Shown one piece after another: positions 7,552 to 22,022 of a stretch of DNA of 55,203 nucleotides. Within the stretch, counting starts at the first letter, position 1. Each line of letters begins with the position of its first letter. The position numbers were made by a program, and so were the translations under genes. This DNA comes from Polyangium sp. 15x6 (GTDB lineage: Bacteria > Myxococcota_A > Polyangia > Polyangiales > Polyangiaceae), in contig NZ_JASBQE010000080.1 of NCBI RefSeq assembly GCF_029960785.1, forward strand, positions 1 through 55,203, read 5' to 3'. A model generated the notes under the pieces. That model was given only the letters and a program-made list of their open reading frames with translations. It was not told the DNA's origin and ran no database searches.

Positions 7552-8517
7552 TCACTCGCAGGTACCGTTCACGCACGAGTTGGAGCAGCAGTCGCTGTTG
7601 GTCCCGCAACCCATGTACTTGAGCGCGCAGCAGAAGCCGTCGCTGCGGCAGTCGTTCCCGCAGCAGTCCGCATCTTGCGTGCAATCCGCGCGTCCTGCTC
7701 CGACGCACTCATGGCACGCCCCGTTGATGCACGAGTTGGAGCAGCAATCGCTGTCCTGCGTGCAGGAGCCGCCCTCCTTGCACGTTGCGCAGAGGCCGTT
7801 GCGGATGCCCGTGGTGCAGCACCCCGATTCACCGATGGCCGGCATGCCCTCCGGGATGCAGCACTTGCCATTGGTGTTGCAAATGGTGCCGTCCACGTCC
7901 GCCGCGCAGCAGTCCGAGTCCTTGTCGCAGCCCCAGTCGCCAATGTAGATGCAATGGCAGGCACCCTGGTAGCAATAGCCAGTGGTTCCCACGCAGCAGT
8001 CATCGTCGGACCCACAGGCGCCACCGGGAGGCTGGCAGCATCCCCCCGAGCGGCAATCGCCTTGACAGCAGTCGTTGTCTCCGCCGCACGCGCTCTGCGT
8101 CAGCGCGCACGTCGCGCAGACACCGTCCCAGCACACGTGGCTGTTGCAGCTCTCGCTCTCGCCATCGCCATGGGTGCACGGCGCACCGTCCGGGAGGCGA
8201 CACGTGCCAATGGTGGCCGGAGCGGTGATGTAACAGGCGCCACCGTTACAGCAATCCGCATCCTTGGTACACCCCCAGTCCGTCGTCGCCACGCACTGGC
8301 ACGTGCCCCACCAGCACTGGTTCGTACAGCAGTCGGCGTCGATGCCGCACGAGTTCCCCACGTCGGTGCAGAGAAGCTGCTCGACGCTTGCCACGTTCTC
8401 ATTGGCCTGCGGATCGGACACTGGCGCACTGTCGCAAGCGCTGATGATGGCAGCGCAAGACGCGAAGAGCGCCACGATTTTCAAAATAACGTTGCCTTTG
8501 GACACAAATTCCTCCAT
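7552..8517 (-). CDS. Cys-rich repeat lipoprotein (Dickkopf-like knots)
   Basis: 321 aa from ATG 8517. The signal peptide ends in a lipobox-like IISAC, so it is probably a lipoprotein. After it come about eight repeats of roughly 30 residues with a pattern close to C-x(5)-D-x-D-C-C-x(4)-C-x(2)-G-x-C (for instance CGIDADCCTNQCWWGTC). Such DCC knots occur in extracellular proteins and are commonly stabilised by disulfides. No enzyme motif is visible. Inferred role: a disulfide-rich surface or secreted adhesive or structural protein, exported and acylated. It follows the beta-helix lipoprotein gene on the same strand with a 169-bp gap that holds its own promoter-like site. The substrate or partner is unknown. 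Confidence 0.85.
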   Translation of the reverse strand: MEEFVSKGNVILKIVALFASCAAIISACDSAPVSDPQANENVASVEQLLCTDVGNSCGIDADCCTNQCWWGTCQCVATTDWGCTKDADCCNGGACYITAPATIGTCRLPDGAPCTHGDGESESCNSHVCWDGVCATCALTQSACGGDNDCCQGDCRSGGCCQPPGGACGSDDDCCVGTTGYCYQGACHCIYIGDWGCDKDSDCCAADVDGTICNTNGKCCIPEGMPAIGESGCCTTGIRNGLCATCKEGGSCTQDSDCCSNSCINGACHECVGAGRADCTQDADCCGNDCRSDGFCCALKYMGCGTNSDCCSNSCVNGTCE

Positions 8518-8544
8518 GCGACCTCGGTCGAGGACGCGGGGCCC

Positions 8545-8573
8545 CACATACACAAGTGAAACCCATTGGTCAA
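8545..8573 (-). promoter_or_regulatory. Sigma-70-like promoter of the Cys-rich lipoprotein gene
   Basis: Minus strand: TTGACC (8573-8568), a 17-bp spacer, and TATGTG (8550-8545), 27 bp before the start codon. The local sequence is clearly more A/T-rich than its surroundings. Confidence 0.45.
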
Positions 8574-14863: not shown

Positions 14864-14946
14864 CCCGTTCGTCCGCGGAGGAAGCGCGGTTCGACGGGGT
14901 CGTGAAGATGCTCGGGCGCGCGATCGAAGGTCAGGCCAAGCCCTGA
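14860..14946 (+). CDS. Possible small ORF overlapping the synthase stop (ATGA)
   Basis: A 28-residue reading frame (MTRSSAEEARFDG...) whose ATG overlaps the preceding stop codon as ATGA, a layout typical of translational coupling. Third codon positions are about 86% G/C, like the real genes here, and the peptide could form one amphipathic helix. An in-frame ATG at 14836 is an alternative start. No homology is recognised, so this may be chance. Confidence 0.3.
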   Translation: MTRSSAEEARFDGVVKMLGRAIEGQAKP

Positions 14947-15011
14947 GTCCTTCCTCGCGCACAGCAGGGACATTCCGGCCCGTGTGACCCGCCGTGACAT
15001 TGCTTTTTGTC

Positions 15012-15040
15012 TTGACGGGTCCACGCGGTTCCCGTCTACT
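15012..15040 (+). promoter_or_regulatory. Sigma-70-like promoter of the receiver-CheD pair
   Basis: TTGACG (15012-15017), a 17-bp spacer, and TCTACT (15035-15040), about 63 bp upstream of the receiver ATG. It suggests that the receiver and CheD genes form one transcript starting here, apart from the synthase gene. Confidence 0.4.
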
Positions 15041-15103
15041 CGGTTAGGACTACGCGCGCTGTCCCACGTTTCAGCGACTCATCCGCGGTGATGGAGAGTG
15101 TGC

Positions 15104-15475
15104 ATGCCGGCGCGAAAGAAGATCCTGCTCATCGACGACTCGGAGATCACGCTCGGAGTCGAAGAAATCATCCTGCGGCGCAGCTACGACATCGTGATGG
15201 CCAAGGATGGCGAGGAAGGCGTCCGCAAAGCGCGCGCCGAGCGGCCGGACCTCATCCTCTGCGACGTCGTCATGCCATCGATCGATGGCTTCGAGACCTG
15301 CAGGCGGCTCCGTGCAGATCCCCTGACCGAAGCCGTGCCGATCATCCTGGTCACGAGCCAGTGCAGCGAGGGGATGATGGTGAACGGATTCGAAAGCGGC
15401 TGCTCCGATTACGTCACCAAGCCCATCCAGCCCGTCGAGCTCCTCGAGAAGGTCAAAAACTGCATCGGTGATTAG
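15104..15475 (+). CDS. Single-domain response regulator (CheY-like)
   Basis: 123 aa, one receiver domain with no output domain. ATG 15104 has GGAGAG 5 bp upstream. All key residues are present: acidic pair Asp11-Asp12, phosphoacceptor Asp54 (ILCDVVMP), Thr84-Ser85 (ILVTS), and Lys106 followed by Pro (VTKPI). Known role: phosphorylated by a CheA-type kinase and then binding a motor or other target. It is followed after 16 bp by cheD and faces the cheA gene of the same cluster, so it is the likely phosphotransfer partner of that CheA. The cluster has no other receiver, so this is either its only CheY or a phosphate sink. Confidence 0.92.
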   Translation: MPARKKILLIDDSEITLGVEEIILRRSYDIVMAKDGEEGVRKARAERPDLILCDVVMPSIDGFETCRRLRADPLTEAVPIILVTSQCSEGMMVNGFESGCSDYVTKPIQPVELLEKVKNCIGD

Positions 15476-15491
15476 GATCCTGGAGCCCGGC

Positions 15492-15986
15492 ATGTCAAAG
15501 CCGCCCCCCATACCCCCCGGAACCCCGCCGGGCTCCTCTCGTGCGCAAAAGTTCCTCCCTCCCGGCGATCTCTTCACATCCCCGGAGCCGACGATCGTGA
15601 CGACCGTCGTCGGCTCCGGCGTGGCCATCTGCCTCTTTCACGCCGGCCGACGCACGGCAGGGCTTTGCCATTACACGCTGCCCCTCTGCCCCCAGAGAAC
15701 CGCATCGTCCGCGCGATTCGGGAATTCGGCGTTTCGAGCGCTGATGGCGCAGCTCGAGGAGCTCGGATGCACGGCCGAAGGCATGGCCGCGCGGGTCTTC
15801 GGAGGCTCGAACATCAGCCTGCACGCCTCCCCCGTCCGATCCCTCGGCGATGAAAACGTCGCAGTCGCGCTGAAGCTGCTCGAGACCACCGGGATCGTCA
15901 TCGTGGAGCAGAGCGTCGGCGGGAACAAGGGGCGGCACATTGCCTATTGCACCGACGACGGCACCGCCGCCATTCGAACGCTTTGA
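15492..15986 (+). CDS. cheD: CheD-family protein lacking the catalytic Cys
   Basis: 164 aa from ATG 15492, with GGAG 6 bp upstream. The family pattern is clear: VVGSGVAICLF, then AGLCHYTLP, a central RFGNSAFRALMAQL helix, ARVFGGSN, EDNVA-like helix, and the terminal GGNKGRHIAY. CheD deamidates receptor glutamines with a Thr-Cys-His set. Here Thr37 and His60 stand in register, but the position of the nucleophile Cys in the GSC motif is Gly43 (codon GGC at 15618). The spacings Thr+6 and +17 to His match the characterised Thermotoga CheD as I recall it. Inferred: no deamidase activity by the usual mechanism; perhaps a receptor- or CheC-binding scaffold. A proline-rich tail of about 30 residues precedes the domain. 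It is adjacent to the receiver gene. Confidence 0.9.
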   Translation: MSKPPPIPPGTPPGSSRAQKFLPPGDLFTSPEPTIVTTVVGSGVAICLFHAGRRTAGLCHYTLPLCPQRTASSARFGNSAFRALMAQLEELGCTAEGMAARVFGGSNISLHASPVRSLGDENVAVALKLLETTGIVIVEQSVGGNKGRHIAYCTDDGTAAIRTL

Positions 15987-16001
15987 GCCTCCATCAGCCG
16001 C

Positions 16002-16362
16002 CTGAGCATTGGTCTCATCTCGAAGCGCTGCGCTGGGGCGTTGCCCCAGGCCCCACCAGGGGCTATCCGCCCCTGGACCCGGACCAGCGCAAGCGCTGGA
16101 CCCGGGGTCGATGAACTGCGCTTCGCGCAGTTCATCGAACAGGCCGAGGAACGACCTCTGCCAAGCAAGACGGCCGCGCTGACCTTTTCATGGGCAACGC
16201 TGTCTCTGGTCTTGCCACCGGCCGTTGGAGGAACTGCGCGGAGCGCAGTTCTTCCACCCCGAGTCCAGGGCTTGCCCTGGTTCGGGTCGAGGGGCGAACA
16301 GCCCCCGCGGGGTCCGGGGCGGCGCCCCGGCGAAGCGCCTCCCGGATGAGACCAATGCTCAG
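16002..16362. repeat. 18-bp inverted repeat enclosing copy B
   Basis: CTGAGCATTGGTCTCATC at 16002-16019 recurs as its exact complement at 16345-16362. The left arm is 15 bp past the cheD stop codon and the right arm 1 bp past the cheA stop codon. The hairpin element copy B lies between them. Such a flank was not found around the other copies. Confidence 0.85.
16031..16340. repeat. Composite hairpin element, copy B
   Basis: Left arm (type 1): CTGGGGC/GCCCCAG (16033-16049), CCAGGGGC/GCCCCTGG with loop TATCC, CCAGCGC/GCGCTGG, and 12-bp stem GATGAACTGCGC. Core about 90 bp, ending in GGTCTTGCCA. Right arm (type 3): GAGGAACTGCGC stem (one G-T pair), CCAGGGC/GCCCTGG, GGGGC/GCCCC with loop GAACA, and CCGGGGC/GCCCCGG (16314-16330). 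It fills the convergent gap between cheD and cheA. Confidence 0.9.
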
Positions 16363-16363
16363 C

Positions 16364-18028
16364 TCAGCCGCCGGGCTGCGCCCGTTCGCCCAGGGCCAAT
16401 GCATGGCGGCAAATGTCCGGAATGCTCAAGACCAGGGCGACCCTTCCATCCCCCAGAATCGTCGAGCCGGAGACGCAAGGGACGTGGCCGAGGAAGGGCC
16501 CGAGAGGCTTGATGACCGCCTGCCGCTCGCCGAGGACGGCGTCCACGACGAGGCCGAGTGTCGTCTCCTCGTGCTGGACCACGACGACGTGCTCGCGCGC
16601 GGGCGCCGCGCCGGAAACCTCGAAGAGCGACCGCAATCGCAGGTAGGGCAATACGGTGCCGCGCACGTCGAGGAGGCCCACGGCGTCCGATTTGCTTCGT
16701 TCGGCCGCTGGGAAATCGAGGCACTCGCTGACGGCCTCGATCGGAAGGACGTACGTCGTCCCCTCGAGCGCGACACCGAACCCGTCGATGATCGCGACCG
16801 TGAGCGGGATGCGCAGGGTGACGGTGCAGCCGTCGCCCGCGCGGCTCTCGATCCGCAGCGTTCCCCGAACGGCCTCCACGTCCCGACGCACGACGTCCAT
16901 TCCCACGCCCCGCCCCGAGGTCTGGGTGACGGCGCGCGCGGTGGAGAACCCGGGCGTCAAGACGAGACGAACCATCTCCTCGTCCGAGAGCTCGGGCCGC
17001 TGCGTGACGTGGCCCGAAGCGATCGCTCGTTCGAGGATCTTCGTACGGTCGAGACCGGCGCCGTCGTCGACGATCTGGACGACGACCGCGCCCATGTCGT
17101 GACGCGCGCGCATCACGATGCGCCCGCACGCGTCCTTCCCCTTGGCCACGCGCACGCGCGGGTGCTCGATGCCGTGATCGACGGCATTCGAGACGAGGTG
17201 AATGAGGGCGTCGCGAATATGATCGACGATCCGGGTATCGACCTCCGCTCCCTCGGCCTCGACGACGAGGTTCACGAGCTTGCCGCTCGCCCGCGCGAGG
17301 TCCCGAGCGATGCGCGCATACCGCCGGAACACCTCGTCGAGACGCACCATCCGGGCCCGCATGATGAGGCCCTGGAGCTCGCGATAAGGACGATCGGCCT
17401 GCTCGTGCGCCTCGCGCAGCTCGTACCCCGTGGCGGGCGTCTCGCCGTCGAGCAGCTCCGTGAGCCGGTTTCGTGCGACGGCGATCTCCCCGAGGAGCGT
17501 GAGCATCGTATCGAGTTTGTCGAGATCGATTCGGAGTGTACGTGGCCCCGATTCCGCGCCGCGGGCCGGCCCGACGACCCCGGAGCTCGAGCTCGGCCCC
17601 GTCGAAAGCCCCTCTTCGCCGCCTGGAGGCGGCGGCGCCGCGCCCTCGACGGCACGGCCGAGCCGCGCGCGCACGGAGAGAGATTGGACCGCGAGCGCTT
17701 CGCTGCGCGACGTCGGCGCCTCGACCATCTTCCGCAGGACGTCGACGCTCTCCAGAAGCAGCGTAATCGGTTCGTCCTTGGGCGAGAACGAGCGCGCGCG
17801 CATGCGCTCGAGCGCGGTCTCCATGGCGTGCGCGAGCTCGGCGACGTGAACGAAGCCGAGCGTCCCGGCGTCTCCCTTCAACGAGTGCACGGCCCGGAAG
17901 ACCCTGTCGAGCACCGCGCCGTCGTCGGTGCTCACCTCGCGGCCGAGCAGATCGTCCTCGATTGCGTCGAGGCTCTCCTTCGACTGACCGAGGAATCGTT
18001 CCACGAGCGCTTCGAGTTCAGCGTCCAT
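16364..18028 (-). CDS. cheA: Chemotaxis histidine kinase CheA
   Basis: 554 aa. Domains in order: an Hpt domain with phosphorylation site His48 in AVHSLKGDAG, a linker of about 60 residues rich in Gly/Ser/Pro, a dimerisation helix pair (LDKLDTMLTLLGEIAVARNRL), a GHKL ATPase (N-box HLVSNAVDHGIEHP, G1 DDGAGLD, G2 GRGVGMDVV), and a CheW-like domain ending near residue 545. There is no separate CheY-binding P2 domain between Hpt and the dimerisation helices. Known role: autophosphorylates on Hpt under receptor control and phosphorylates receivers. It is convergent with cheD and divergent from cheW. An N-terminal ATG at 18028 is used, with no strong ribosome site. Its natural receivers are probably those at 15104 and elsewhere in the genome. 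Confidence 0.95.
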   Translation of the reverse strand: MDAELEALVERFLGQSKESLDAIEDDLLGREVSTDDGAVLDRVFRAVHSLKGDAGTLGFVHVAELAHAMETALERMRARSFSPKDEPITLLLESVDVLRKMVEAPTSRSEALAVQSLSVRARLGRAVEGAAPPPPGGEEGLSTGPSSSSGVVGPARGAESGPRTLRIDLDKLDTMLTLLGEIAVARNRLTELLDGETPATGYELREAHEQADRPYRELQGLIMRARMVRLDEVFRRYARIARDLARASGKLVNLVVEAEGAEVDTRIVDHIRDALIHLVSNAVDHGIEHPRVRVAKGKDACGRIVMRARHDMGAVVVQIVDDGAGLDRTKILERAIASGHVTQRPELSDEEMVRLVLTPGFSTARAVTQTSGRGVGMDVVRRDVEAVRGTLRIESRAGDGCTVTLRIPLTVAIIDGFGVALEGTTYVLPIEAVSECLDFPAAERSKSDAVGLLDVRGTVLPYLRLRSLFEVSGAAPAREHVVVVQHEETTLGLVVDAVLGERQAVIKPLGPFLGHVPCVSGSTILGDGRVALVLSIPDICRHALALGERAQPGG

Positions 18029-18158
18029 GCCGCGTCCAAGCCCGCGGGAGCATGCCTCGGGCGCGAATGTCTGTCAACGGACCGACGCCGATCGCGCGCA
18101 CGTGGAACTTGACGGACGTGGCTATTTTCGCTTTGCTGACGGGATACGGAGGTCTCTC

Positions 18159-18659
18159 ATGGGAGACGTCGAGCAGGCGGGCACCTCCCAGTACATCTCG
18201 TTCCACGTGGCGGGGGGCGAGTACGCGGTGAGTATCCTGGGGGCCCGGGAAATCATCGAATATACGGACATCACCCGCGTGCCCATGATGCCTCCGGCGA
18301 TCCTGGGCGTCCTGAACCTGCGCGGGCACGTCGTGCCCGTGGTCGATCTCGCGGAGCGGTTTGGCATGCCAGCTTCGACCATCACCCGCCGGACGTGCAT
18401 CCTCGTCGTGGAGACGCACATCGACGGGGCCCTCACGAGGGTGGGGATCTTGATCGACGCGGTCGGAGACGTCCTCGAGCTGCACGCGAGCGCAATCGAG
18501 AAGGCCCCGCCCTTCGGGACGAAAATGAGCCTGGATCATCTCCTCGGGCTGGGGAAGGTGGACGGGAAGCTGGTTCTCTTGCTCGACATCGATCACGTCC
18601 TCTCCCCGGACGAGCTCCTCGCCGCCCGTTCCCTCGAGCCAGCCGCCGCGAGCACGTGA
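18159..18659 (+). CDS. cheW: Chemotaxis coupling protein CheW
   Basis: 166 aa. The frame extends upstream to 18027, but ATG 18159 has a perfect GGAGG 7 bp before it and gives the usual CheW start. A single CheW/SH3-like domain with the patterns YISFHVAGGEYAVSIL, PMMPPAILGVLNLRGHVVPVVDL and VGILIDAVGDVL. Known role: couples receptors to CheA in the array. It is followed after 1 bp by cheR, so the two are likely one operon. Confidence 0.94.
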   Translation: MGDVEQAGTSQYISFHVAGGEYAVSILGAREIIEYTDITRVPMMPPAILGVLNLRGHVVPVVDLAERFGMPASTITRRTCILVVETHIDGALTRVGILIDAVGDVLELHASAIEKAPPFGTKMSLDHLLGLGKVDGKLVLLLDIDHVLSPDELLAARSLEPAAAST

Positions 18660-18660
18660 C

Positions 18661-19593
18661 GTGAATTCGTCACACGATGCGCCGCCGACGGGGCTGTTCC
18701 TTTCGATCCACGACGACGAATTCAAGCTGTTCCAGGAGCTCGTCCGCCGGCACTCCGGGATATCCCTCGGCCCCCACAAACGCCCGCTCTTGCTCTCCCG
18801 GCTCGCCCCCCGGCTGCGGGCGCTCGGGCTCCATTCCTTCGCCGAATACCACCGTCGTGTGACCGGCCCCGGGGGACAGGAGGAGCTCGAGCGAATGCTC
18901 GATTGCATCTGCACGAACGAGACCCGCTTTTTCCGGGAGCCCCGGCAGTTCGAGCTGATTCGCCGCACCCTGCTGCCGGAATGGACCTCACGCCTCGGGC
19001 AAGGACGGGCCGCAGGCACGGCGGCGACGGTCCCCGCGACCTACCGGCGGCTCCGGGTCTGGAGCGCGGCATGCTCGACCGGCGAAGAACCCTATTCCCT
19101 GGCCATGACGCTCCTCCATGGCCTCGCGCCGCTCCCTCCAGATCCACGACTCGCGATCGAAATCCTCGCCACGGATCTCTCGACCCGAGCGCTCGATCGA
19201 GCGCAGCGGGCGATCTATCCCATCGAGCGAGCCCCCGAGATCCCGCACGACTATTTGCTCGCCTACATGCTCCGCGGCCAGCGCTCGCACGCCGGGGAAA
19301 TGAAGGCAGGCCCAGAGCTCCGAGCACTCGTCACATTCCGCCGGGAAAACCTCATCCAGGTCACGTCCCAGAAGCTCGGGCGTTTCGATCTCGTCCTCTG
19401 CCGCAACGTGCTCATCTATTTCGACGCGGCAACCAAGGCCCTGGTCCTCGACCGCATCGTCGATTGCCTCAACCCCGGCGGCCATCTCTTCCTGGGTTAT
19501 GCCGAGAGCCTGAATGGCCAGGTGCGCGGAATGGTGAACGTCGCGCCCTCGGTCTACCGACGCGAAGCTCCCAGAGGGTGCTCTGTAGCGTAG
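18661..19593 (+). CDS. cheR: Chemoreceptor glutamate methyltransferase CheR
   Basis: 310 aa with a GTG start one base after the cheW stop. An N-terminal helical domain (about 10-85) precedes a SAM-binding domain with VWSAACSTGEEPYSLAM, DLVLCRNVLIYFD and LNPGGHLFLGYAESL. Known role: transfers methyl groups from S-adenosylmethionine to receptor glutamates. The sub-domain reading AYMLRGQRSHAGEMK is as long as in CheRs that bind a C-terminal receptor pentapeptide, and the neighbouring receptor ends in a matching motif. No CheB methylesterase lies in this cluster, so demethylation must be provided elsewhere or be absent. Confidence 0.93.
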   Translation: MNSSHDAPPTGLFLSIHDDEFKLFQELVRRHSGISLGPHKRPLLLSRLAPRLRALGLHSFAEYHRRVTGPGGQEELERMLDCICTNETRFFREPRQFELIRRTLLPEWTSRLGQGRAAGTAATVPATYRRLRVWSAACSTGEEPYSLAMTLLHGLAPLPPDPRLAIEILATDLSTRALDRAQRAIYPIERAPEIPHDYLLAYMLRGQRSHAGEMKAGPELRALVTFRRENLIQVTSQKLGRFDLVLCRNVLIYFDAATKALVLDRIVDCLNPGGHLFLGYAESLNGQVRGMVNVAPSVYRREAPRGCSVA

Positions 19594-19862
19594 CGCTGGG
19601 GCTTTGCCCCAGACCCCACCGGGGCTATCCGCCCCTGGACCCGGACCAGCGCAAGCGCTGGACCCGGGGTCGATGAACTGCGCAATGCGCAGTTCATCGA
19701 ACAGGCCGAGGCAAGACTGGCAACGCCGCTCGTGGTCTTGCCACGGGCCCGTCGGATGAACCGCGCATCGCGCGGTTCATCCGCCTTCGGTCCAGGCCGT
19801 GCCTGGTCCGGGGTGCAGGGGGCGGACAGCCCCCTGCTGGGGTGCGGGGCAAAGCCCCGCGC
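19594..19862. repeat. Composite hairpin element, copy C
   Basis: Begins 3 bp after the cheR stop. Left arm (type 1): CTGGGGC/GCCCCAG (19596-19612), GGGGC/GCCCC with loop TATCC and a one-base imperfection, CCAGCGC/GCGCTGG, GATGAACTGCGC stem. Short core with GGCAAGACTGG and GGTCTTGCCA. Right arm (type 2): GGATGAACCGCGC stem, CCAGGC/GCCTGG, GCAGGGGGC/GCCCCCTGC with loop GGACA, GCGGGGC/GCCCCGC (19844-19860). It fills the convergent gap to the receptor gene. Confidence 0.9.
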
Positions 19863-19876
19863 ACGCGCCCACTTTC

Positions 19877-21676
19877 TCAGAACCGCGTGAAGTCATCGTC
19901 GGAGCCTGACGCCGACCGAACGCTTCCGTTTCCTCTCGTGCCCGAGACGACCGGCCGCTTTTGCAATCGAGCTGCGGGCCCGCCACGGGGGGCGCTCCAC
20001 TTCGCGTCGTACGCGCGCGGCGACTTGGGGAGGCGGACGTCCTCCAGACCCACGACGGTGAAGAATGCCACGAGCTCCGTCAGCATCTCGGCCTGCGTCG
20101 CCAGCTCCTCGGCGGTCGAGGCCAGCTCTTCCGACGATGAGGCATTTTGCTGGGTGATCTGGTCGACCTGGAACATTGCCTGGCTGACTTGCCCCACGCC
20201 GTCCGATTGTTCGCTCGACGCGTTGGCCACGGATTGCACGAGGTCCGCCGTCCTCCGGATCGCTGGCACGAGATCCGTGAGGAGCTGCCCGGAGCGCTCG
20301 GCAGCGCGTACGCTCGTGAGTGCGAGGCTGCTGATCTCCTTGGCCGAGGTCTGGCTTCGCTCGGCGAGCTTTCGGACTTCCATGGCGACCACAGCGAATC
20401 CCTTGCCGTGCTCCCCTGCCCTCGCGGCCTCGATCGCCGCATTGAGCGCGAGCAGGTTCGTCTGGTAGGAAATGTCCTCGATGATCGAGATCTTGTCCGC
20501 GATGACCTTCATCGCGTGAACCGTATCCGCGACGGCTCTCCCGCTCTCCTCCGCGTCCTGCACGCCCTTCAGCGCCATCTGCTCCATTTGCCGGCTGTTG
20601 TCGGCGTTTTGCTTGATCGACGCGCGAATCTGCTCGAGACGCGCCGTGGTCTCCTCCACGGCGACCGCCTGCTCGCTCGTCCCTTGGGAGAGCGTCTGCG
20701 ACGTCGCGGAGACCTGCACGGCCGCGCCTGACGTCGCGGCCGCGCTCTCGCGGATTTCACCGATGATCCGCGAGAGCTTGTCGACCATCTTCCGGAAGGA
20801 GCTCCCGAGCACGTCCTTGTCCGACCAGGCTTTCACCTCCACGGTGAGATCACCGGACGCGATTCGCTCGGCGGACGTCGCCGTGTCCTTGAGCGAATCG
20901 ACCATCGTCTTCATGGCGGAGATCATTCGCCCCGTCTCGTCCTGGCTCGTCGCTTGCTCGACCTCGGGGAGCTCGCCCTTGGCGATCTGGGATGCGGCGG
21001 CGACGGCGGACTCGATGGGCTTCGTGATGGCGCGGGTGAGCATGATACCGAGCGTCAGGGCGACGAGGAACGCGGCGACCACGATGCCGAGGACGAAGGA
21101 CCTCGACTTTTCGTACACGCCCATGGCGTCTGCCGCTGCGCGGTCCATCTTCGCGAACGCTTCATTCGAGAGATTCTCGACGTGCTCGTCCACGTTCCCG
21201 GCGAGGGTGCGCGCCTCGTCGAGACGCTGGCTGGCCTCCTTCGCTTTGCCTTGCTGCGCGAGCTCGATGACCTGCGCTTCCACGCGCCGCAGATCCTCGA
21301 CTTGCGTCTTGATGTCGGCGGCGCGGCTCTTGCCGTCGCTCGAGGCGTGATCCTGGTAGCTGTCGAATTCTCTGTCGAATGCGGCGCTGTACTTGGAGTA
21401 GCCGGAGGTCCACTTCGGGATGGCCCCCATGTTGCCGGTGGCGCTCTCGATGACGACGTTCCGGACCATTCGCGCTTCCTGCACGAGCTGGGTGTTCGCG
21501 CCTCGAAGGTGCGCCAGGCTCACCGCGTGCCGGTCGTGGAGATCGGTCAAGAGCTCGGCCATCGTGGCCATTCCGCGCAAGCCCTGGTAGCCGACCGCCG
21601 CGGCGAGGCCGGCGATCAACACGAAGCCGAACATCAGCTTTTTCGTGAGCGAAGCATCCCGAAACGCTGCGAGCAT
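19877..21676 (-). CDS. Methyl-accepting chemotaxis protein with C-terminal tether
   Basis: 599 aa. Short cytoplasmic start, TM1 about 13-33, a periplasmic four-helix domain (34-190), TM2 about 191-213, two HAMP-type segments in tandem ([23 protein letters not shown] and [15 protein letters not shown]), and a kinase-control hairpin with the conserved tip ([27 protein letters not shown]). A flexible tail of about 60 residues follows and ends in DFTRF, close to the x-aromatic-x-x-aromatic pentapeptide that tethers CheR in other receptors. Upstream there is a promoter-like site. Ligand unknown. It is convergent with cheR, separated by copy C. Confidence 0.93.
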
Positions 21677-21747
21677 GGTTCACCCTCGCGCCGGGAGTGC
21701 GAGCCAGTGACGCACGGCCCCCTCCCCCCGGAGATTCCAATCATGGC

Positions 21748-21776
21748 AGATTACAAGCTTTCGATTCGGAGGGCAA
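21748..21776 (-). promoter_or_regulatory. Possible promoter of the receptor gene
   Basis: Minus strand: TTGCCC (21776-21771), 17-bp spacer, TAATCT (21753-21748), about 70 bp before the receptor ATG. Confidence 0.35.
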
Positions 21777-22022
21777 GATCTCGCGAGGTCGAGGGTTGTT
21801 ACACCCCCTTCCCGACGCCCGCGTCATGTCCTGGATCGCCGAACCCTGACGCTCACCCCCGCCCCCTTTCCTTCGCGATACGCCTTCCGATGCCACGCGA
21901 ATGCGATACGCAAGTAATGGCGGGCAGCGCGTGGGCCACCACGCGCATCGGCCTCCGAGCGCTCGAAGCGCACCACACCAAACCCGCGCGGAGTCGAGCA
22001 CGGTTCGTCCGCCGGAATTGCA

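Follow-up and report, generated by a model that had tools for sequence, protein, structure and literature searches.

Among described chemosensory proteins, CheD of Thermotoga maritima (2f9z chain C; PF03975) is the closest to the protein analyzed here. Its catalytic triad is given as Cys27/His44/Thr21 in a paper that also places NTAN1, YfiH and CNF1-type proteins in the same fold class (PMC7022378), these being cysteine hydrolases that act on other substrates. A second point of reference is the CheC/CheD system of Bacillus subtilis, in which point mutants separated the two roles of CheD, binding being presented as the major and deamidase activity as the minor one (PMC3513319). That system thus offers a precedent for a CheD acting mainly by binding.

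We analyzed a stretch of 55,203 nucleotides from the soil myxobacterium Polyangium sp. 15x6, hereafter the window, which contains a chemosensory cluster whose signaling core is complete by domain content (response regulator or RR, CheD, CheA, CheW, CheR and chemoreceptor or MCP). Its features are the following:

14864..22015, unstranded: extent of the window DNA in a variable slot that is filled differently, or left almost empty, in four relatives of the genus (flank comparison)
15098..15475, + strand: single-domain response regulator (RR), PF00072, 16 bases upstream of cheD
15492..15986, + strand: CheD homologue with Gly43 at the catalytic Cys position, translated as 164 aa with the stop at 15984-15986
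15618..15620, + strand: codon 43, GGC (Gly), where the codon of the nucleophilic Cys is expected
16021..16343, unstranded: first copy of a repeat of ~320 bp, between cheD and cheA (sequence match)
16364..18028, - strand: CheA with Hpt, dimerization, ATPase and CheW-like domains, on the strand opposite to cheD, unlike in Sorangium-type clusters
18027..18659, + strand: CheW coupling protein (listed ORF; the internal start at 18090 was used in comparisons)
18661..19593, + strand: CheR methyltransferase (domain profile)
19593..19869, unstranded: second copy of the same ~320-bp repeat, separating the cheR and MCP genes (sequence match)
19877..21676, - strand: chemoreceptor (MCP) with 4HB sensor, HAMP and MCP signaling domain, the site ARLEQIRA at residues 345-352 and the C-terminal end DFTRF

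The window protein belongs to the CheD family with a PF03975 score of 67.1 bits (cut-off 25). This match covers residues 70-163 and begins at profile position 13, after the Cys position, so that the Pfam match alone is uninformative on the Cys. The protein remains below the cut-off of the NCBIfam CheD equivalog (best 83.6 bits vs 223) and below those of the eight other NCBIfam CheD models that match it. Alignment with T. maritima CheD by phmmer (E 3.2e-14) places Gly43 under the Cys of GLGSCVAVC, namely Cys27, and it places Thr37 and His60, respectively 6 residues before and 17 after, under the other members of the triad. Together with the translation and the GGC codon, this alignment confirms the preliminary description of the locus, which had read Gly in place of the Cys of the GSC motif and had rightly pointed out that a single base separates GGC from TGC. 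The same description considered all CheD landmarks to be in register; the offsets of Thr37 and His60 do hold, and His60, which corresponds to His44, is invariant in a 60-row alignment as well as in 74 of 74 Cys-bearing relatives, but Thr37, which corresponds to Thr21, is no strict landmark, Thr being found there in only 48 of the 74. As to the start of the protein, the ATG at 15492 is preceded by GGAG, with 6 bases between, and an alternative in-frame GTG at 15468 would extend it to 172 aa.

With no thiol at position 43, the known mechanism cannot run. Loss of the known deamidase route, as also claimed from the initial reading of the sequence, is well supported by analogy with Cys mutants of the same fold: NTAN1 C75A, the activity of which is stated to be completely abolished (PMC7022378), and BLF1 C94S, referred to as an inactive mutant (PMC8960835). 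In view of the NCBIfam name of the T. maritima type, 'deamidase/glutamate methylesterase', both of these reactions may have depended on the lost Cys.

An AlphaFold2 model of the window CheD, built with the 60-row alignment, has a mean pLDDT of 93.1 and predicts that the CheD fold is intact. Its top PDB match in Foldseek is T. maritima CheD (2f9z_C; TM 0.84, rmsd 1.6), followed at lower rank by NTAN1, YfiH and then, weakly, CNF1. Besides the predicted fold, the two proteins share the His and Thr of the triad, a place in a chemosensory cluster and the conserved residues G41, S42, G57, L63, P64, G104, G105, N122, G144 and R148 (window numbering); they differ in the Gly that stands for the nucleophile and in the genome of the window, which has no CheC match. 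Conservation among the 74 Cys-bearing relatives reaches 90% or more at 14 positions, and the window CheD retains 13 of them, Cys43 being the sole loss. Positions 40, 50, 56 and 118 also deviate, from residues found in 74-89% of Cys-bearing CheDs. The frame is open, without stop or frameshift, and its GC3 (0.805) is like that of the neighboring genes (0.80-0.86); nothing marks the window CheD as a pseudogene.

Relatives of the window protein were then collected from all 183 available genomes of the order, an overlapping sample of 377 genomes of the phylum and one planctomycete locus, at a threshold (E 1e-3) that misses more distant CheDs. Matches were found in 29 of 108 family genomes, 39 of 183 order genomes and 42 of 377 sampled phylum genomes, the distant planctomycete locus having come from a scan of contigs with the window protein. 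No domain match came from two of the loci, L030 and L121. Position 43 is Cys in 75 of the 86 CheD domain rows, Ser in 4, Gly in 3, Thr in 2 and Ile in 1, with 1 unaligned. Three rows were left out of the subsequent counts and of the tree, namely L119, the N-terminal part of which is missing, L106, a fragment with Cys, and L029, which aligned without landmarks and has Ile at position 43 and Ser at position 60. The 83 usable domains comprise 74 with Cys and nine without: the window CheD (Gly), L004, L078, L080 and L098 (Ser), L110 and L118 (Thr), and L012 and L013 (Gly). The tree requires five changes to account for the Cys losses, and its well-supported branches force at least four; by its position in this sequence tree, the window CheD is one of several independent Cys-less cases.

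Among the nearest relatives, those that lie in chemosensory clusters carry the Cys. In the tree, the window CheD is sister to seven Sorangium-type (genus g47) CheDs with support 100/92. Codon 43 is TGC or TGT in seven cluster relatives (L003, L005, L006, L007, L008, L009 and L031), six of which (all but L007) lie in Sorangium-type clusters and have 42-45% identity to the window CheD. The question raised at the outset, whether Gly is fixed in related clusters, is answered in the negative, since the CheDs of six Sorangium-type genomes and of genome G082 have Cys, and we reject Gly43 as a fixed trait of the cluster type. Nor is it required that the change be recent or an error, as had been suggested: the branch of the window CheD is long (1.1 substitutions per site), the change is undated on it, and at least four to five Cys losses are found among relatives. 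As a separate observation, the Sorangium-type genome G101 has a second CheD, L004 (locus L041, 9954-10595, - strand), with AGC (Ser) at codon 43 and no other chemosensory gene by profile in 19.5 kb.

Four of the Cys-less CheDs (L078, L080, L110 and L098, at loci L122, L123, L126 and L125) form a clade of their own with support 97/88. They resemble the window protein in being CheD homologues without nucleophile, but they belong to another branch of the family and differ in context. L078 and L080 adjoin CheB, L110 adjoins CheA at a contig end, and an MCP fragment accompanies L098 on a contig of 6.2 kb. Genomes G189, G462 and G092 additionally have a Cys-bearing CheD, located in G189 and G462 at the same locus as the Cys-less one; in G184, the genome of L078, one CheD only was matched. 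The NG86 estimates for L078 and L080 (dN 0.38, dS 2.97, which is saturated, ratio 0.13) put dN well under dS, indicating that a Cys-less CheD can remain under constraint. The placement of L118, which has a very long branch, is unsure. A CheD-CheD tandem fusion frame is present in G019 and G020 (loci L127 and L128), the first domain having Gly (L012, L013) and the second Cys, and CheB follows it. No title among the literature matches listed concerns natural Cys-less CheDs, which is weak evidence of absence given that few subscription journals were covered.

The gene context of the window CheD is again closest to that of the Sorangium-type clusters, five of which (L042-L044, L046 and L047) comprise all six gene types, on a single strand. 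The same six-gene set occurs in another order in L045 (G082), and in L040 (G099) five genes lie together with CheR ~7 kb off. CheA and MCP are the two genes that are inverted in the window with respect to the Sorangium-type clusters. In ten-row trees, the window and Sorangium-type sequences group together, apart from G082 and outgroups, for CheD (support 79), RR (76), CheW (67) and CheR (86). The CheA tree, in conflict with these, groups the window with the outgroups L130 and L131 (97), outside Sorangium-type and G082 sequences, and the MCP tree is ambiguous. The conflict in the CheA tree and the inversion of CheA and MCP suggest that the kinase, and perhaps the receptor, may not be the original partners of this CheD; the cluster looks as if it were a mosaic.

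The cluster also lies in a variable slot. Both flanks recur in all five congeneric genomes compared (93-96% identity for the left flank gene, 82-92% for the SDR gene), none of which has a CheD match or a close CheA, so that the cluster is without counterpart there. In G087 the flank genes are ~400 bp apart, and the 329 bp (0.33 kb) between the matched flanks consist nearly entirely of one copy of the repeat element (82%; L148 1596-1917), which carries inverted repeats. The slots of G088, G085 and G086, of ~7, 13 and 18 kb, are without chemosensory genes by profile, that of G088 having partial matches to the repeat element, and in G089 the flank genes are split between contigs. Gain of the cluster by the window lineage would be the simplest reading of this pattern, and its loss in the relatives instead is possible. 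Composition is of little help in this respect, with GC of 0.667 in the cluster and 0.682-0.686 in the surroundings, and GC3 of 0.80-0.86 for the cluster genes, 0.90 for both flank genes and 0.83-0.88 for a further three genes of the window.

The usual partners in adaptation were also searched for. The window CheD is the only PF03975 match in its genome, which has no match to CheC (PF04509) or to CheX (PF13690), the CheX search having covered this genome; CheC has no match in any of seven related genomes searched (G082, G099-G104). By these profiles, the CheC or CheX partner of a CheC/CheD adaptation system is missing from the genome. There is no CheB among its genes, so it does not form a complete adaptation module of CheR plus CheB: a CheB profile, built from three of the five CheB loci of the genome, finds within the window the receiver domain of the RR only (34.7 bits), and all five CheB matches of the genome lie on other contigs. 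None of the seven related genomes has a CheB match less than 100 kb from the cluster on the cluster contig; the closest lies ~108 kb off (G082), and the cluster contigs of G103 and G104 (28,187 and 11,220 bases) are too short to exclude a nearby CheB. CheB does occur in two clusters that are more distant, L130 and L131, which suggests its probable loss from the present cluster type.

The best reading of these data, to which we give about even chances, is that the window CheD is a binding-only pseudo-deamidase, a role already raised in the preliminary description. Without its Cys nucleophile, the Gly43 protein should be unable to hydrolyze receptor glutamines by the CNF1/CheD route. It would dock on the methylation helices of the receptor encoded in the cluster, and its binding would alter how strongly this receptor drives CheA, as binding of B. 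subtilis CheD does. Adaptation of the module would then consist of CheR methylation plus CheD occupancy, and amide or ester removal, if any, would fall to a CheB encoded elsewhere. Such a role is plausible here because B. subtilis CheD matters chiefly by binding, even if the latter is catalytically active and has CheC as partner; with no CheC match in the genome of the window, the B. subtilis scheme is not transferable as a whole. The conserved positions, the predicted fold, the open frame, the complete signaling core and the recurrence of Cys-less CheDs argue for a binding-only protein, and so do dN/dS values near those of two of three Cys-bearing pairs, detailed below. Against it, Gly43 occurs in a single sequence of the cluster type, CheC is absent by profile, the conflicting CheA tree raises the possibility that this CheD is no longer with its first kinase and receptor, and the receptor retains Gln349.

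The latter residue lies in ARLEQIRA, a site that resembles a deamidation target. Elsewhere the corresponding site is ASLQQLSG (L042, L043, L044 and L047) or ACLEQMGA (G082), and no such pair is found there in G099. All these varied sites accompany a Cys-bearing CheD; we therefore reject the receptor site as proof for or against deamidation, and the notion that the receptor no longer needs deamidation is unsupported. The MCP of the window ends in DFTRF and those of L042-L047 in DFVPF, DFVSF or DFRRF, while the L040 receptor has EFERF followed by 16 further residues. A C-terminal ending of the DFTRF kind can tether CheR.

The chief rival to a binding-only role, which we regard as possible although clearly less likely, is relaxed constraint: the cluster would have been gained in a variable slot where its CheD is dispensable, the change in the active site being early decay with no new role. 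It is favored by the missing counterpart of the cluster in all five congeneric genomes, by the content of the slot in four relatives (just the repeat, or DNA in which profiles recognize no chemosensory gene), by the inversion of CheA and MCP, and by the additional deviations at positions 40, 50, 56 and 118. The rate of evolution points mildly in the same direction. Measured from the common node, the ratio of the window to the Sorangium-type mean is 1.28 for CheD, 1.44 for RR, 0.86 for CheA, 0.96 for CheW, 1.00 for CheR and 0.89 for MCP, and that of the window to L040 is 1.60, 5.47, 0.91, 1.20, 0.98 and 0.84, respectively, in a comparison of a single window sequence in ten-row trees where the reference nodes of CheA and MCP differ from that of CheD because of the grouping of CheA with outgroups and the ambiguity of the MCP tree. 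A CheD branch 1.28-1.6 times that of relatives is consistent with relaxed constraint and counts mildly against a binding-only role, though the RR exceeds it in both comparisons; acceleration of CheD is mild at most. Decay is opposed by the frame without stop or frameshift and with GC3 like that of its neighbors, and by the presence of 13 of 14 near-invariant positions. The NG86 dN/dS values, rough at high GC3, speak against it with weak power: those of the window CheD versus L003, L004 and L031 (0.66, 0.60 and 0.70) are near two of the three values for Cys-bearing pairs (0.60 for L031-L003, 0.61 for L031-L008 and 0.37 for L084-L108), the pair L003-L004 giving 0.53.

A sequencing or assembly error hiding a true Cys codon is very improbable. 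The single base between GGC and TGC would allow it, and the codon is known from the assembly sequence only, a second genome of the species not having been found; yet a random hit on the single catalytic codon of 164 is a priori unlikely, the related L004 has a separate loss of the Cys in a genome consisting of one contig of 14,557,589 bases, and more losses occur elsewhere in the CheD tree. We give just as little credence to a relocated nucleophile, by which Cys59 next to His60 (window 15666-15671) or Cys47 would take over and keep the enzyme active, for although Cys59 is found in 4 of 9 Cys43-less vs 4 of 74 Cys43-bearing rows (Fisher p 0.004), three of these four Cys43-less rows belong to one clade and so are not independent, four relatives have Cys59 and Cys43 together, the model shows residues 55-61 as a single strand, on which the side chains of 59 and His60 should point to opposite sides, and Cys47 is common to six Cys43-bearing Sorangium-type copies. 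Cys59 as a clear compensation is accordingly rejected on account of clade dependence, co-occurrence with Cys43 and the strand geometry of the model.

A binding-only CheD would represent a natural separation of the binding and catalytic roles of the protein. If Cys-less CheDs are functional, the family is not simply one of receptor deamidases, and annotation based on PF03975, the match to which bypasses the Cys here, mislabels such proteins. More speculatively, CheD may have repeatedly turned into a non-catalytic, receptor-binding regulator, which in the present case would be the only CheD that the cell has, with neither CheC nor a CheB in the cluster, so that CheR would write and CheD read or cap the methylation helix in a system with no eraser of its own; the Cys-less clade, with two loci beside CheB, would then be a second such class. 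We consider this generalization possible, though less likely than not. Elsewhere in the window, at 7552-8553 on the - strand, there is a cysteine-rich ORF of 333 aa with many CC pairs.
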